From an uncultured Clostridia bacterium (GTDB lineage Bacteria > Bacillota > Clostridia > Oscillospirales > CAG-272), in NCBI GenBank assembly GCA_944384585.1, contig CALWTY010000024.1, positions 1 to 35,990 of the forward strand: 35,990 bases of DNA, read 5' to 3'. Made by a program: the position numbers and the translations under genes. The notes under the pieces are model-generated. The model made no database searches. It was not told the origin of the DNA and saw nothing but the letters and a program-made list of their open reading frames with translations. Shown piece after piece: positions 293 to 20,415 of the stretch. How positions within the stretch are numbered: position 1 is the stretch's first letter; every line of letters begins with the position of its first letter.

Positions 293-1090
293 ATGGATAA
301 ATCGTCATTGGTTCAACGTTATGCCAATACCCCTGAACAAAAGCTCCTCCTCGCGCACGTTTTGGATCTTGCCCTGCGGGCGGAAAACCGGAATACCGTC
401 GAGACGGGGAATTTTCTCTCCGACACGGAGGCGGTACTTGTCGAGGCGATGCTCCGTGCTGCGGGGATTTCCCGCTTCCTCCTCTATGGCGGCTATAGGG
501 ACGCCGAGCGAAAATGCCCCGTTTTTCTGCCCGAGTACCTCGAAGAGGAGGATCTGATCGCTTTCCCCGCTTTGGCGGAGATTACTTATGCGATCGCGGA
601 ACGGAATCGCTTCGATTCCGCCCCCCTCAGCCATCGGGACGGGCTGGGCGCTCTGATGGCGCTCGGGATTGAACGGGAGATGATCGGGGATATCGCCGTA
701 ACTGATGAACGTGTGATCATAATACTGAAATCCTCGGTGGCCGATTATGTCGCGGATAATCTGACGGCAATCGGGCGCTGCCGCGTTCAAACAACGTTGT
801 ATCCCATGACGGAAATGCCGGAGCGGGAGCCCCTTGTCGAGATGAGCGATACCGTTGCTTCCATGCGCCTTGACGCGGTTTTGGCGGCGGTCTTTCATCT
901 TTCCCGCAGTGCTGCGACGGAAGCGCTGGGACGGGGACTCGTGACGGTCAACGGCGCGGAGGCATCCAAGGCGGATCGTCTTGTCTGCGACGGGGATCGG
1001 CTGGCGCTTCGCGGCAAGGGAAGAGTCATCATCGGAGGCGTTGAGGGCTTGTCCAAAAAAGGCAGGGTGCGTTTTACCTATCGGAAATAA
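293..1090 (+). CDS. ylmH: YlmH-family S4-domain RNA-binding protein
   Basis: 265 aa, close to the usual 255-265 aa of the YlmH family. The C-terminal third (about residues 180-245) has the S4 fold signature: a MRLDAVLAAVFHLSRS helix pair, then GLVTVNGAEASKADRLVCDGD, the usual basic RNA-contact surface. The N-terminal part is the YlmH-specific domain, with a GGYRDAERKCPVFLPEY stretch that is recognisable in relatives. In Bacillus, YlmH (RqcP2) binds ribosome-associated tRNA and helps ribosome quality control; that role is known for the family and is not shown here. The start at 293 is favoured by GGAGG at 278-282. The usual neighbours sepF/ylmG/divIVA are not in the window, so the cell-division context is either to the left or absent. 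Confidence 0.85.
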   Translation: MDKSSLVQRYANTPEQKLLLAHVLDLALRAENRNTVETGNFLSDTEAVLVEAMLRAAGISRFLLYGGYRDAERKCPVFLPEYLEEEDLIAFPALAEITYAIAERNRFDSAPLSHRDGLGALMALGIEREMIGDIAVTDERVIIILKSSVADYVADNLTAIGRCRVQTTLYPMTEMPEREPLVEMSDTVASMRLDAVLAAVFHLSRSAATEALGRGLVTVNGAEASKADRLVCDGDRLALRGKGRVIIGGVEGLSKKGRVRFTYRK

Positions 1091-1160: not shown

Positions 1161-1198
1161 GAAACCGGGGAAGGCTTTGAAAAGCCTTCCCCGGTTTC
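1161..1198. terminator. 17-bp perfect hairpin between convergent genes
   Basis: GAAACCGGGGAAGGCTT (1161-1177) and its exact complement (1182-1198) flank a TGAA loop. It lies between the ends of the + strand ylmH-like gene and the - strand vanZ-like gene, so it can serve both. There is no clean T-run on either side, so termination may rely on stem strength. Confidence 0.65.
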
Positions 1199-1228: not shown

Positions 1229-1795
1229 TCAGCTCTTTTTCTTTTCGGTCGGAAGCATCCGCTTCAACAGGAAGAAGAGTGAGGTCGAGATCAGCACCCC
1301 AAGGGTGTTCAGAATCAGGTCGTTCATATCGAAGGAGCGCCCGATCAGAGGCTGAAGCAGCTCAATGGCAAGGGTTGCCGAAAGCCCTGCCGAGAAGGTC
1401 TTTCCGAAGGATGGCTGACGGCTGAAAAAGGGATGCAGCAGCCCGAAGGGGAGAAACATCAGAAGATTGAAGAGATTTTCCGTTGTGAAACGGCGGAGGA
1501 ACGTCGGAATGAACCGATAGGTGAAGTTGAAAAAGTGCCACGCATTCCCGCTCGGCTGTCGGTAGAACAGATAGTACCAGATATTCACCCAGAAATTCGG
1601 AGGAACGAGGGTGAGTGCCAGCAATCCCGTCAGATAGCAGACGAAGAGCGATGCAAGGAGCTTGCGGGAGACGGGGGAGGTATGATCCCGACGGAATCGG
1701 GAAATCCCGTAGATCAGCCCGACCGCCAGCGCGACCGGGATCACCTGAAGGAAATCCCCGAGATATGTGTCAAAGAAAAAGTACTGAAACGTCAT
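1229..1795 (-). CDS. VanZ-family integral membrane protein
   Basis: 188 aa with four to five hydrophobic segments (about residues 12-30, 45-65, 108-125, 135-150 and 155-175). The VanZ hallmark is present: NLLMFLPFGLLHP, then ELLQPLIGRSFDMNDLILN, the conserved acidic/polar pattern of the domain. VanZ in enterococci gives low-level teicoplanin resistance, but most VanZ-domain proteins in Clostridia have no assigned role, so resistance should not be inferred. The ATG overlaps the stop of the upstream gene (ATGA at 1792-1795), which indicates translational coupling with the UxaC-like protein and one transcript from the promoter at 3071-3099. Confidence 0.85.
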   Translation of the reverse strand: MTFQYFFFDTYLGDFLQVIPVALAVGLIYGISRFRRDHTSPVSRKLLASLFVCYLTGLLALTLVPPNFWVNIWYYLFYRQPSGNAWHFFNFTYRFIPTFLRRFTTENLFNLLMFLPFGLLHPFFSRQPSFGKTFSAGLSATLAIELLQPLIGRSFDMNDLILNTLGVLISTSLFFLLKRMLPTEKKKS

Positions 1796-3039
1796 GGAGA
1801 AGAATATCCTTTCTGAATCATGCGGTCAAAGCGGCGGGCGGCGTTTTCCCGCATCCGCTGCCGAAGCGCAGGGGACAGCCCGGAAGCGGCTTCCGCAAAA
1901 TCCGTCGGGTCTATGATCGCCCTGCCGCGGAGCAGAAGTACGCCGATCGGGAATTCCGCCGCAGCTGCCTGCGGATCGGAGACGGCGGGGACGATCCCCG
2001 GCAGTCCCGCCGGCGTGGAAAAGGCAAAACGGTCGATCAGACCGAGAAAACGCTGCGGGTGGGGGGAGAGCAGGACGGTTTCCGGGATGGGGTCGTTTCG
2101 GGTAAGCTGCGCAAGAAGCGCGGTCAGCGGGGCGGGATCGGAATCGACGGTGAGGAGCAGGGGAAGATCCCGCAGAACCGGGAGGGGGGAAAACTGCAGG
2201 AAGAATGAAGTGCGGAACTGATCCCGTTCGGCGGACGAGACGGGGAGACCGTCGCGTAGCTTTCGGAGGATTCCGTCCACCTCGTTTTTGCGCGCGTTGC
2301 GGTCGTATCGATAGTCGGTCAGCATAAGACGCGCTGCCGGGCAGCCCTGCTGCAGAAAGGTGTCAAGCCGCGCGGAAAGCCGCTCGATCAGCGCGGCGAG
2401 ACTGTCAAGGCCGTCAAGAGGCAGGGCACAGGGGTCACCGAGATCGAAAACGGGGCGGCAGCGCGGAAGGGGCGCTGAATCCGGTAGGATTTCATCGGCC
2501 GGGAGAAATCCTCCCATGATGGAGCCTTCGTCTGCCCGGGCGCCGGGGAGGGAGCGGGAGGGGGAACCGGTCGGTTCTGACGGGCCTGCCGTCGGGGACT
2601 CCGGCACCAGGTCGTCAAAGGGGGAGAAGCGCAGAAAGAGCGTTTCGACTCCCAAAGCGGCGGCGAGGGAGAGAGGAGAGAGACGCAGCTCCCGGATGCG
2701 CTCGCAGCATCGCTTCCAGAGCATTCCGCTCTCCCCCTCCTCCGGCGACAGGGAAAATACAGTCGACAGGATGCGGCGTACCGTCCGCTCCTGCCGATGT
2801 CCCGTCAACAGAGGAAGACAGTCCAACAGGGCGCAGAACTTCTCATAGTCCGATGCGCCCCCGGTGATCCTGTCCTCCGGGACGCCGCAGAGCCGCATGG
2901 CGCTTTGGGTGTGCGGAGAGCGCACCACAAGCAGATCGGCGATATTCCGATATGCGCGATTTTCCGCGGCGGCACGGGAAGGCAGATCATTGTCCCATGA
3001 AAAAAAACAACGTGCGGCTTTTTCGGCTACGTCTCCCAT
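1792..3039 (-). CDS. Divergent uronate isomerase (UxaC)-like protein, probably catalytically inactive
   Basis: 415 aa from the ATG at 3039, chosen because GGAG lies 5 bases upstream and the promoter at 3071-3099 would put earlier starts at or before the transcript start. From memory of UxaC, several blocks line up in order: AAENRAYRNIADL; VPEDRITGGASDYEKF (residues 53-68); PLPRCRPVFDL; RLDTFLQQGC; VSSAERDQF; IPETVLLSPHP; and the C-terminal ENAARRF. The metal and catalytic positions do not survive. The HxH of the N-terminal HCHL motif is replaced in SWDNDLPS (14-21), the Asp-His after the GC-R block is missing, the His of the QLHIG strand reads TVDSD, and the late tryptophan/TDSRS block seems deleted. 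The protein is about 50 aa shorter than UxaC. A role as a pseudoenzyme or sugar-acid sensor is inference. A new TIM-barrel activity is also possible. Confidence 0.6.
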   Translation of the reverse strand: MGDVAEKAARCFFSWDNDLPSRAAAENRAYRNIADLLVVRSPHTQSAMRLCGVPEDRITGGASDYEKFCALLDCLPLLTGHRQERTVRRILSTVFSLSPEEGESGMLWKRCCERIRELRLSPLSLAAALGVETLFLRFSPFDDLVPESPTAGPSEPTGSPSRSLPGARADEGSIMGGFLPADEILPDSAPLPRCRPVFDLGDPCALPLDGLDSLAALIERLSARLDTFLQQGCPAARLMLTDYRYDRNARKNEVDGILRKLRDGLPVSSAERDQFRTSFFLQFSPLPVLRDLPLLLTVDSDPAPLTALLAQLTRNDPIPETVLLSPHPQRFLGLIDRFAFSTPAGLPGIVPAVSDPQAAAAEFPIGVLLLRGRAIIDPTDFAEAASGLSPALRQRMRENAARRFDRMIQKGYSSP

Positions 3040-3070
3040 TGTTACTCCGTATTTCAGATTATTTTCCCCC

Positions 3071-3099
3071 ATTATAGCATTTTTTTGAAAAAAAAGCAA
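3071..3099 (-). promoter_or_regulatory. Promoter of the UxaC-like/vanZ operon
   Basis: Read on the - strand: -35 TTGCTT (3099-3094), 17-base spacer, -10 TATAAT (3076-3071). The start codon follows after a short leader. It is back to back with the pheST promoter; the two -35 boxes are 9 bases apart. Confidence 0.65.
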
Positions 3100-3137: not shown

Positions 3138-3164
3138 ATTAGATGAAATCCGAATATCATTCTA

Positions 3165-3402
3165 AAAGCTGTGAAAGCGTGTAAGTAGAGGCGGAGCAGA
3201 GGGCTTGAAGAGAGGCGGCGCCGTGGCTGAGAGCGCCCCATCCCTCCCGTATCGAATTTCAGCGCCGGAGCTTTTCCCCGAAAAGCAGATCCTGCGTTAA
3301 GGGGAATGCCGCGCCGCAAAAGGCGTAAAAAGAGCGGAATTTTCCGAACACGGGTGGTACCGCGGGCTTGCTCGTCCCATGAAATTATGGGGCGGCTTTT
3401 TG
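3165..3402 (+). promoter_or_regulatory. T-box leader (tRNA-Phe-responsive) controlling pheST
   Basis: The invariant T-box GGGTGGTACCGCGG is at 3352-3365; its UGGN bulge pairs with the acceptor end of uncharged tRNA. Stem I runs from about 3165, with AGTAGA and GAGAGG segments typical of its lower and middle parts. The likely specifier codon is TTC (Phe) at 3258-3260, followed by a purine as expected. The terminator stem CGTCCCAT/ATGGGGCG (3373-3394) is followed by GCTTTTTG. Uncharged tRNA-Phe should stabilise the antiterminator and allow read-through into pheS. The specifier choice is supported by the downstream genes; stem boundaries are approximate. Confidence 0.93.
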
Positions 3403-17541: not shown

Positions 17542-17625
17542 AAGGGATTCACGGAAGACGGCTGGGGCGCGGCGGACCGAAAGTGAATGAAATCAAAACG
17601 AATTATTCATGAAGGAGTGAAAAAC

Positions 17626-20415
17626 ATGAGAAAAAAATCAACAATGCTTCTTGCTCTTGTGATGGCGGCTGTGATGCTGTTCTCACTGGCGGGTTGCAAA
17701 GATGACGGCGGCAAAAATCCGTCGTCCAGCTCGACCGCTGCGGATAGCCAGGGCAACGTCCCGTCGGGCGAGGGCTACGTTGACGACGGCAAGCAGTACA
17801 CCTACCGTATGGCTCCGTCCGACATTCCCGAATCCTGGAACTATCACACCTATCAGTCCAACAGCAGCACTTATGTCCTTGACTACACCTCCGACGGCCT
17901 TTATACCTTTGCGTATAACGACGACTTCACGGGATATAAGATCGTTCCCGGAATGGCCGCCGATTATCCCGTCGATGTGACCGCCGACTACGTCGGAAAG
18001 TACGGCATCGTCGCCGGCGAAGAGAACAAGGCCTACAAGATCACCCTGAAGGATTACCTGTTCTTCGATAACGGCGAAAAGCTCGACGCCAATTCCTTCG
18101 TCGAGTCGATGAAGCTCCTGCTTGATCCCGCTGCCGCGAACTTCCGTGCCGACAACGTCTATCAGGCCGGTCAGCTCAAGATCTACAACGCAGAGAACTA
18201 TGTCAAGCAGAACAGCTACGCGCTGTCCAACTTCCTCGGCGCGTATGATTACATGGATCCCTCGACCTTCAAGGCCAACAGCGAAGGCATCCTTCAGCAT
18301 GAGGGCTACGATCTCGTCGTCGACATCAACAACGGCGCGGATTGGGGCGCTTCCATCATCGAGGCGGCCGGCTCGCAGGTCTTCAGCGAGGACGGCACTC
18401 AGATCGCGCTGATCAACGAGACCACCGGCGAGCGCTGGGGCTGGAGAACCGTCGACAGAGTCGGCGAGGGTGACGATGCTCACTTCGTCTTCTATGATCT
18501 CAACGGCAATGAGATCACCGGCGTGACGGTCAATGCCGCCGGCACCGGCTACGAGTACCAGGGTACTCCCATTAACTTCGAATACGCATATCCCGCTCCC
18601 GCGCAGGCTCTGATCGACGCCGCCGATGAGGATGGTCAGGTCAAGCTGACTGCAGAGCATCTGAAGAATCTGCAGAACCTCATCGCGATCCTCCACGGCT
18701 ATGCTTCCGTTGAGGAGTACGCGAAGGATGAGCCCGAGTACGCCTACCAGGAGTGCCTGGAGATGATCTTCCTCGGCAAGTTCATCGACAAGATGGAGTA
18801 TGACGGCAACGTCGGCTTCTTCGCTCCCAGCGCCAACGAGCTGGTCATCGTACTGAAGAACCCGATGGAGGACAACTTCTACCTCCGTTATGAGCTTTGC
18901 TCCAGCTTCTTCCTTGTTTACGCTCCCCTTTACAAGGAGTGCATCAAGATCGACAACGGTGTTTACACCAACACCTACGGCACCAGCGTTGATACCTTCG
19001 TCGGATACGGCCCCTACAAGCTGACCCAGTACACCGAGGGTGCTACCATCCGTCTGGACAGAAACACACACTGGCGCGGCTACAACAAGAACGACTACAT
19101 CGCCGGCACCTACATGACCGACAGCGTCAGCTACCAGAAGGTCACCGAGGATGCGGTCCGTCTCGGAATGTTCCTCAAGGGTGAGATCGATTCCTACGGT
19201 CTGACCGTCGAGGATATGAAGGACTACAACGGTTCTCAGTACACCTATTACAATGACTCCGAGTCTACCTGGTACCTTGCCATGAACCCCGATCTCGAGA
19301 ATCTCGGCAAGATCCAGAACACCACCAGCCCCGTGAACGCCGGCAACGCCGTCATCAAGACCGTGCTGACGATCCCGGAATTCCGTCAGGCGCTCTCCTA
19401 CTCGCTTGACCGTAACCAGTTCAACCAGACCCTTTCTCCCACCTCCGGCGTTGCCAAGGCGCTGCTCTCCTCGATGATCGTTGCCGATCCCGAGAGCGGA
19501 CTGACCTACCGCGCCATGGATGAGGCCAAGGACGCGATCCTCGAGTTCTGGGGCCTGTCCGACAAGTGGGGCGAGGGCAAGGAGTACGCCGACCGTGACG
19601 AGGCGATCGATTCCATCACCGGTTACGATCCCGCCGGCGCCAAGACCCTCTTCGACAAGGCGTATGATCTCGCCGTTTCTCAGGGCCTGATCACGCAGGA
19701 GCAGATCAGCAGCGGCAAGTGGGAGGTTCAGCTCACCATCGGTAAGCCCGCTGAGGGCAACTATTACAACCAGGGCTACGAGTTCCTGAAGAGCAACTGG
19801 GAAGGCGCCGTGAAGGGCACCAAGTTTGAGGGACACCTCACCTTCGTGCAGTCCGCCGTCCTCGGCGCCACCACCTTCGGAAAGGCTCTCCGTACCGGTA
19901 CCGTTGATATCCTCTTCGGCGTCGGCTACGGCGGATCGATGTTCGATCCCTACTCGATGATGGATTGCTTCACCGGCTCGCTTCAGTACGATCCCTTCAC
20001 CGACAAGTCCAAGATCGATCTCGACGTCACGATTGACGGCAAGACCCTCCGCGCCAGCCTCTACGACTGGGTCAGCGTCGCTCTCCAGGGCGATAAGATC
20101 GAAGCTGTTGTGGTCGATGCCAACGGCAACGCTACCTCCGAGAAGGTCACCCTTTCCGCCGGCGCCAGCGACAAGGCTGAAACCAGAGTCGCGATCCTGG
20201 CCGCTGCCGAGACGAAGGTTCTGACCCTGGCCAACATCTTCCCGGTCTCCACCGACGCGACTGCCTCCCTCAGATGCATGAGAGTCCAGTACAAGACCGA
20301 GGATTATGTTGTCGGTATGGGCCGCGGCGGTATCGAGTGGTACACCTACGCCATGGATGACGCTCAGTTCGCTGAGTATGTCAAGAACCAGGGCGGCACG
20401 CTCAACTACAAATAA
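17626..20415 (+). CDS. ABC transporter solute-binding lipoprotein, enlarged OppA/DppA (SBP_bac_5) type
   Basis: 929 aa from the ATG at 17626, with GAAGGAG in a good position; an in-frame ATG at 17587 has no such site. The signal peptide is MRKKSTMLLALVMAAVMLFS with a lipobox LAGC, so Cys24 is lipidated outside the cell. Family-like segments are PESWNYHTYQSNSSTYVLDY, GLYTF, ITLKDYLFFDNGEKLDANSF, FVGYGPYKLTQYTEGATIRL and REALSYSLDRN-like FRQALSYSLDRNQFNQTL. OppA proteins are usually 500-600 aa, so about 350 residues are extra, with candidate inserted parts around residues 200-400. Codon choice is strongly C-ending and uniform, as in highly expressed genes and unlike most neighbours. The ligand is probably a peptide, but this is family-level inference. 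Confidence 0.88.
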   Translation: MRKKSTMLLALVMAAVMLFSLAGCKDDGGKNPSSSSTAADSQGNVPSGEGYVDDGKQYTYRMAPSDIPESWNYHTYQSNSSTYVLDYTSDGLYTFAYNDDFTGYKIVPGMAADYPVDVTADYVGKYGIVAGEENKAYKITLKDYLFFDNGEKLDANSFVESMKLLLDPAAANFRADNVYQAGQLKIYNAENYVKQNSYALSNFLGAYDYMDPSTFKANSEGILQHEGYDLVVDINNGADWGASIIEAAGSQVFSEDGTQIALINETTGERWGWRTVDRVGEGDDAHFVFYDLNGNEITGVTVNAAGTGYEYQGTPINFEYAYPAPAQALIDAADEDGQVKLTAEHLKNLQNLIAILHGYASVEEYAKDEPEYAYQECLEMIFLGKFIDKMEYDGNVGFFAPSANELVIVLKNPMEDNFYLRYELCSSFFLVYAPLYKECIKIDNGVYTNTYGTSVDTFVGYGPYKLTQYTEGATIRLDRNTHWRGYNKNDYIAGTYMTDSVSYQKVTEDAVRLGMFLKGEIDSYGLTVEDMKDYNGSQYTYYNDSESTWYLAMNPDLENLGKIQNTTSPVNAGNAVIKTVLTIPEFRQALSYSLDRNQFNQTLSPTSGVAKALLSSMIVADPESGLTYRAMDEAKDAILEFWGLSDKWGEGKEYADRDEAIDSITGYDPAGAKTLFDKAYDLAVSQGLITQEQISSGKWEVQLTIGKPAEGNYYNQGYEFLKSNWEGAVKGTKFEGHLTFVQSAVLGATTFGKALRTGTVDILFGVGYGGSMFDPYSMMDCFTGSLQYDPFTDKSKIDLDVTIDGKTLRASLYDWVSVALQGDKIEAVVVDANGNATSEKVTLSAGASDKAETRVAILAAAETKVLTLANIFPVSTDATASLRCMRVQYKTEDYVVGMGRGGIEWYTYAMDDAQFAEYVKNQGGTLNYK

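Follow-up and report, generated by a model that had tools for sequence, protein, structure and literature searches.

A predicted pseudoenzyme of uronate isomerase ancestry, probably disarmed in place in a family of Clostridia

The window, that is, the whole stretch of 35,990 nucleotides from the contig CALWTY010000024.1 of an uncultured Clostridia bacterium, carries near its left end a UxaC-like gene followed on the same strand by a gene for a VanZ-family membrane protein (Table 1). The UxaC-like frame starts with an ATG at position 3039 and ends with a stop codon at 1794-1792. A TATAAT hexamer with an extended -10 element was found by eye approximately 32 bases upstream of the start codon; the corresponding promoter-like sequence has a weak -35 hexamer and is absent from the list of the consensus scan. 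Together with the overlap between the two genes and the hairpin downstream of vanZ, which is likely a bidirectional transcription end, this arrangement looks like one transcription unit, in line with the common transcript proposed in an earlier, sequence-only reading of this DNA. The UxaC-like gene obtains its best codon bias score in its own frame, although this score is weaker than that of the neighbouring genes, and the approximately 42-residue insert in its product is predicted to be disordered (pLDDT of about 25 in the AlphaFold model). The T-box leader in front of the divergent pheS-pheT operon scores below the Rfam gathering threshold of 93 bits and is therefore missed by default annotation.

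Table 1. Features at the left end of the window (positions refer to the whole stretch)
Feature	Position	Strand	Basis and remarks
YlmH-like S4 RNA-binding protein	293..1090	+	Pfam; also adjoins the degenerate gene in G001 and G005
18-bp hairpin preceded by a 6-bp one	1161..1198	-	z -7.0; follows vanZ, between convergent genes
VanZ-family membrane protein, 188 aa	1229..1795	-	Pfam; ATGA overlap with the pseudoenzyme stop codon; pairing only in the window genome
Predicted UxaC-derived pseudoenzyme, 415 aa	1792..3039	-	ORF, Pfam, alignment, AlphaFold model
D377, Asp of TDSRS, sole retained UxaC metal ligand	1909..1911	-	Alignment; model has low confidence here
Low-complexity Pro/Ser/Gly-rich insert, ~42 residues	2479..2604	-	After the second barrel strand; no relative has it
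D16-N17-D18, in place of the zinc-binding HxH	2986..2994	-	Alignment
GGAG ribosome-binding site	3045..3048	-	5 nt 5' of the ATG at 3039
Promoter-like TTGCTT-17-TATAAT, TGC before the second hexamer (extended -10)	3071..3099	-	By eye
T-box leader of the divergent pheS-pheT operon	3162..3382	+	75.3 bits

The suggested uronate isomerase ancestry of the 415-aa product is borne out by a search with the Pfam UxaC model (PF02614), which it matches with an E-value of 7.5e-18 and 65 bits at a cut-off of 25. Searches of the PDB with the protein sequence exclusively returned solved uronate isomerases. With the NCBIfam glucuronate isomerase equivalog model PRK02925, in contrast, the protein scores only 60.6 bits against a cut-off of 387, while one intact family member reaches 596. 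AlphaFold models were obtained for the window protein (pLDDT 73.6, pTM 0.70) and for a 385-aa orthologue (pLDDT 82.3, pTM 0.79), and the top structural matches of both are uronate isomerases. The window model matches the uronate isomerase 3iac with a Foldseek E-value of 1.8e-13, and the orthologue model aligns with the same structure with a Z-score of 28.1 across 373 residues. Both models thus show the UxaC fold, namely an N-terminal helical part followed by a (beta/alpha)8 barrel; the input alignment for the models included three intact Bacteroidota UxaC sequences, and the predicted fold is hence not independent of the homology. The window protein consequently shares homology and overall model fold with UxaC of the amidohydrolase superfamily (PDB 3iac, 1j5s, 2q01 and 2pnk). 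The degenerate proteins described below differ from UxaC in their length, 385-430 compared to approximately 465 amino acids, and their genes lie outside uronate operons.

To compare individual residues, we aligned the window protein and its relatives with 77 UxaC proteins from the same family and order, and the column positions of the catalytic residues are those of this alignment. The series His-His-Tyr-Trp-Arg-Asp-(His)-His-Arg-Trp-Trp-Asp-Arg-Ser is complete in nearly all of the 77 UxaC proteins, whereas nearly all of these approximately 14 active-site residues are gone in the window protein and its relatives. In the window protein, the zinc-binding HxH is replaced by DND (the other relatives from the same genus, g1, carry D-x-A/S/E/Q), the Asp-His pair by R-L, and TDSRS by IDPTD, a motif in which the Asp remains but the Arg is gone; the His of the HIG motif is missing along with the following RNN segment and its Arg, and the WW block is deleted. 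In E. coli numbering, the lost residues are presumably the zinc ligands His33 and His35, Asp238, His297, Arg302, both Trp residues and Arg414. The TDSRS Asp is retained in g1 and g3 and lost in g18 and g72. The loss of the metal-binding and catalytic residues claimed in the sequence-only reading therefore stands for HxH, Asp-His, HIG and WW, but the Asp of TDSRS has survived, and the HxH position is not blank but reads D-x-D. On this comparison, it is strongly supported that the window protein is not a uronate isomerase, and we classify it by its sequence as a UxaC-derived pseudoenzyme. A search of the open-access literature revealed no previous description of a pseudoenzyme in the UxaC family.

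Eighteen genomes from five genera carry a degenerate copy (seven in g1, including the window genome, three each in g3, g18 and g72, and two in g52). The g1 relatives stem from Clostridia/Oscillospiraceae metagenome assemblies, with deer gut as the source of three. No internal stop codon is reported in any of the 18 frames. A second, complete UxaC is encoded elsewhere in 11 of the 18 carriers; the remaining seven are without any other UxaC, six of them also without UxuA, although the completeness of some of these assemblies is 76-88% and reaches 94-98% in the window genome, G005 and G025. The window genome itself is among the six, as neither another UxaC nor any UxuA was found in it, which agrees with the view that the gene does not belong to a sugar-acid locus. 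Complete second genes are present at L041-L043, L048 and L183-L185. The second UxaC of g72 has all motifs and adjoins a gene that, by eye, resembles uxaA, while the g1 and g3 ones are set apart on a branch of their own, which points to acquisition from elsewhere.

The genomic position of the degenerate genes points to their origin. Most g1 genomes and those of g18, g72 and g52 have the degenerate gene in divergent orientation to at least one member of a block coding for a PHP phosphatase-like protein, an orphan MutS domain V protein (MutS_V), an Lrp/AsnC regulator and a class I aminotransferase, although no neighbouring gene is common to all carriers. An intact uxaC is found at the same site in many sister genera (L045, L156, L158-L161, L165, L171 and L172), so that in most genera the degenerate genes occupy the position of the intact uxaC of the same bacterial family, which indicates that its inactivation took place on the spot. 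The G001 copy sits directly between ylmH and the Lrp/aminotransferase genes, with no vanZ there, whereas the window copy is flanked by ylmH-vanZ on one side and pheST on the other. Comparison of these flanks indicates that the window carries the same locus in a rearranged form, and ylmH, which is also next to the degenerate gene in G005, marks the orthologous locus. Based on this synteny, which comes from g18, g72, g52 and most of g1 and does not extend to g3 (including G585), we take the degenerate gene to be the family's native uxaC, disarmed at its original site. The block beside uxaC is itself conserved in many genera (L139:11130-15250, with a HisJ-like PHP protein; equivalents in L045, L047, L140 and L159), and its 538-aa MutS domain V protein matches the KamC reactivase model with a score under the cut-off. 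In some genera, a gene for a xylose-isomerase-like TIM-barrel protein is located 5' of uxaC on the same strand (L139:10133-11146, L044 near 8251, L173 near 7567); this gene is still found beside the degenerate copy in g18 and might encode a partner.

The active site of UxaC was probably lost several times over, as judged from gene trees. In the full UxaC tree, all degenerate copies fall on one side of one branch; the program warns of long branches, which make this grouping unreliable. The tree of the neighbouring MutS_V gene requires at least three changes of state, with a single change in 0% of the bootstraps, and the aminotransferase tree requires two. In a tree without the other degenerate groups, the g72 copies are placed beside the intact uxaC of g72 itself (99/85), and the g18 copies fall inside a supported set with three intact copies. 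These observations argue for repeated loss, with g72 and g18 supported as independent losses and g1, g3 and g52, which have long branches, likely representing further ones. A single ancient pseudoenzyme clade, as hinted at by the full tree, is contradicted by the neighbour-gene tree and by the trees containing one degenerate group each.

The constraint on the degenerate genes is relaxed but real. In the g1 trio G002, G006 and G007, the degenerate gene has a dN/dS of 0.19-0.20, compared to 0.035-0.098 for intact UxaC and 0.02-0.05 for the Lrp and aminotransferase genes of these genomes; in g72, g18 and g3, its dN/dS is 0.15-0.30, 0.19-0.31 and 0.21, respectively. The overall range of 0.15-0.31 was measured in relatives, those of the window gene being too distant for the test, and it is these relatives that combine an open frame with a dN/dS well below 1. 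As the values are two to six times those of intact UxaC in the same genomes, part of the pattern is relaxation. We also compared the conservation of the catalytic rim, the rest of the barrel and the N-terminal part, using strand ends taken from the orthologue model. In intact UxaC, the rim is the most conserved part (p of about 2e-5), whereas in g1 it is no better conserved than the remainder of the barrel (p 0.45) and in both g18 and g72 falls below it, which speaks for a function independent of the former catalytic centre. Conservation of the N-terminal helical part exceeds that of the barrel in each degenerate group compared; the same holds for intact UxaC, and this feature is thus not unique to the degenerate proteins. 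The retention of an intact and selected gene after the loss of the catalytic site hints at a second job that does not require catalysis.

Could the barrel instead have become a new enzyme? The mouth of the g1 barrel could have been rebuilt as a carboxylate/arginine site for a different metal or substrate, an idea that draws on an Asp at the position of the first zinc-binding His, an Asp at the R186 position, the retained Asp of TDSRS and a new Arg after strand 2. These four residues are positioned at the strand ends that face the former active site and are invariant over five g1 lineages at approximately 34% identity, and the D-x-D of the window protein in place of HxH would fit such a site as well. 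The invariant charged rim residues of g1 (D17, R139, D160 and D343 in the G006 orthologue) are enriched, albeit in a small test with seven residues (Fisher p 0.029), so that a new active site is possible in g1. As a probe for an alternative metal site, however, conservation gave only a weak signal, restricted to g1; the rim as a whole is not favoured there, and g18 and g72 do not keep the same residues, for which reason we consider a new enzyme unlikely. Slightly less probable still, in our opinion, is that a redundant uxaC is slowly decaying, with a frame that is open but no longer matters. The raised dN/dS (0.15-0.31 versus 0.035-0.10 in intact UxaC), the long branches, one of which bears the window protein itself, and, in the window gene, the unstructured insert and weak codon bias are what a fading relic would look like, but all 18 copies are open, the g1 trio shows almost no indel differences over 385 codons, frames persist down to approximately 30% identity within the genus, and dN/dS stays far below 1 at high dS.

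Two further readings assign the protein a partner, and we give both of them very little credence. Many pseudoenzymes act on active paralogues, and the degenerate protein could accordingly be a regulatory subunit that forms mixed oligomers with an intact uronate isomerase. A complete UxaC is indeed available in 11 of the 18 carriers, but the other seven, among them the nearly complete assemblies of the window genome, G005 and G025, would offer no such partner. The working partnership with VanZ put forward in the sequence-only reading is just as improbable. The downstream protein is a member of the VanZ family (PF04892; 1.7e-17, 64.6 bits at a cut-off of 30.1), does not come near the NCBIfam cut-offs for VanZ-A and VanZ-F and is the only VanZ of its genome, and the ATGA overlap in a common transcription unit could be taken as a sign of cooperation. 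VanZ is reported to lower lipoglycopeptide binding (PMC7146870). In our neighbourhood survey, VanZ genes were found in 14 of the 20 genomes, but beside the degenerate gene in the window genome alone. The 17 other carriers, six from g1 and 11 from the four other genera, either lack vanZ or have it on a different contig, and G001, G006, G007 and G110 have no VanZ match at all, so that we rejected the candidate partnership on the basis of this survey. In two g3 genomes, a formate/nitrite transporter gene overlaps the end of the degenerate gene by four bases, which illustrates that a stop/start overlap is a poor guide to partnership.

We therefore return to the native uxaC that was disarmed in place. 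We propose that the gain of a second UxaC or the loss of the uronate pathway would have lifted the constraint on catalysis, and that the gene may have been kept for a second role of the family's UxaC that involves no catalysis, either in binding a protein or ligand or as a structural component, and that would be carried mainly by the N-terminal helical part. We infer that this role has outlived the enzymatic one, and it would probably consist in binding. VanZ would have been inserted downstream in the window species only and would merely be co-transcribed. As a whole, this account of a gene disarmed in place and retained for a non-catalytic role, with VanZ as an incidental neighbour, has in our view about an even chance of being correct. 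Somewhat more tentatively, we suggest that the UxaC of this clostridial family hides a second function that has nothing to do with uronate isomerisation, and that it was disarmed in place several times independently once its catalysis had become redundant, with the protein being kept.

Like bacterial pseudoenzymes in general, the proteins described here have lost catalytic residues while retaining their fold and purifying selection; what sets them apart is that the ancestral gene itself lost its active site in place, apparently more than once among sister genera. The repeated disarming of a housekeeping sugar enzyme whose protein is kept represents a natural experiment that can separate catalysis from a second function. 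There is also a practical side, as the degenerate proteins score as 'glucuronate isomerase' in Pfam, and UxaC-based pathway predictions for gut bacteria can therefore err. The window genome, with no catalytically complete UxaC and no UxuA, is an example. Further along the window, positions 17587-20415 (+ strand) code for an unusually long (942 aa) family 5 solute-binding protein, which precedes Opp-type transporter genes.
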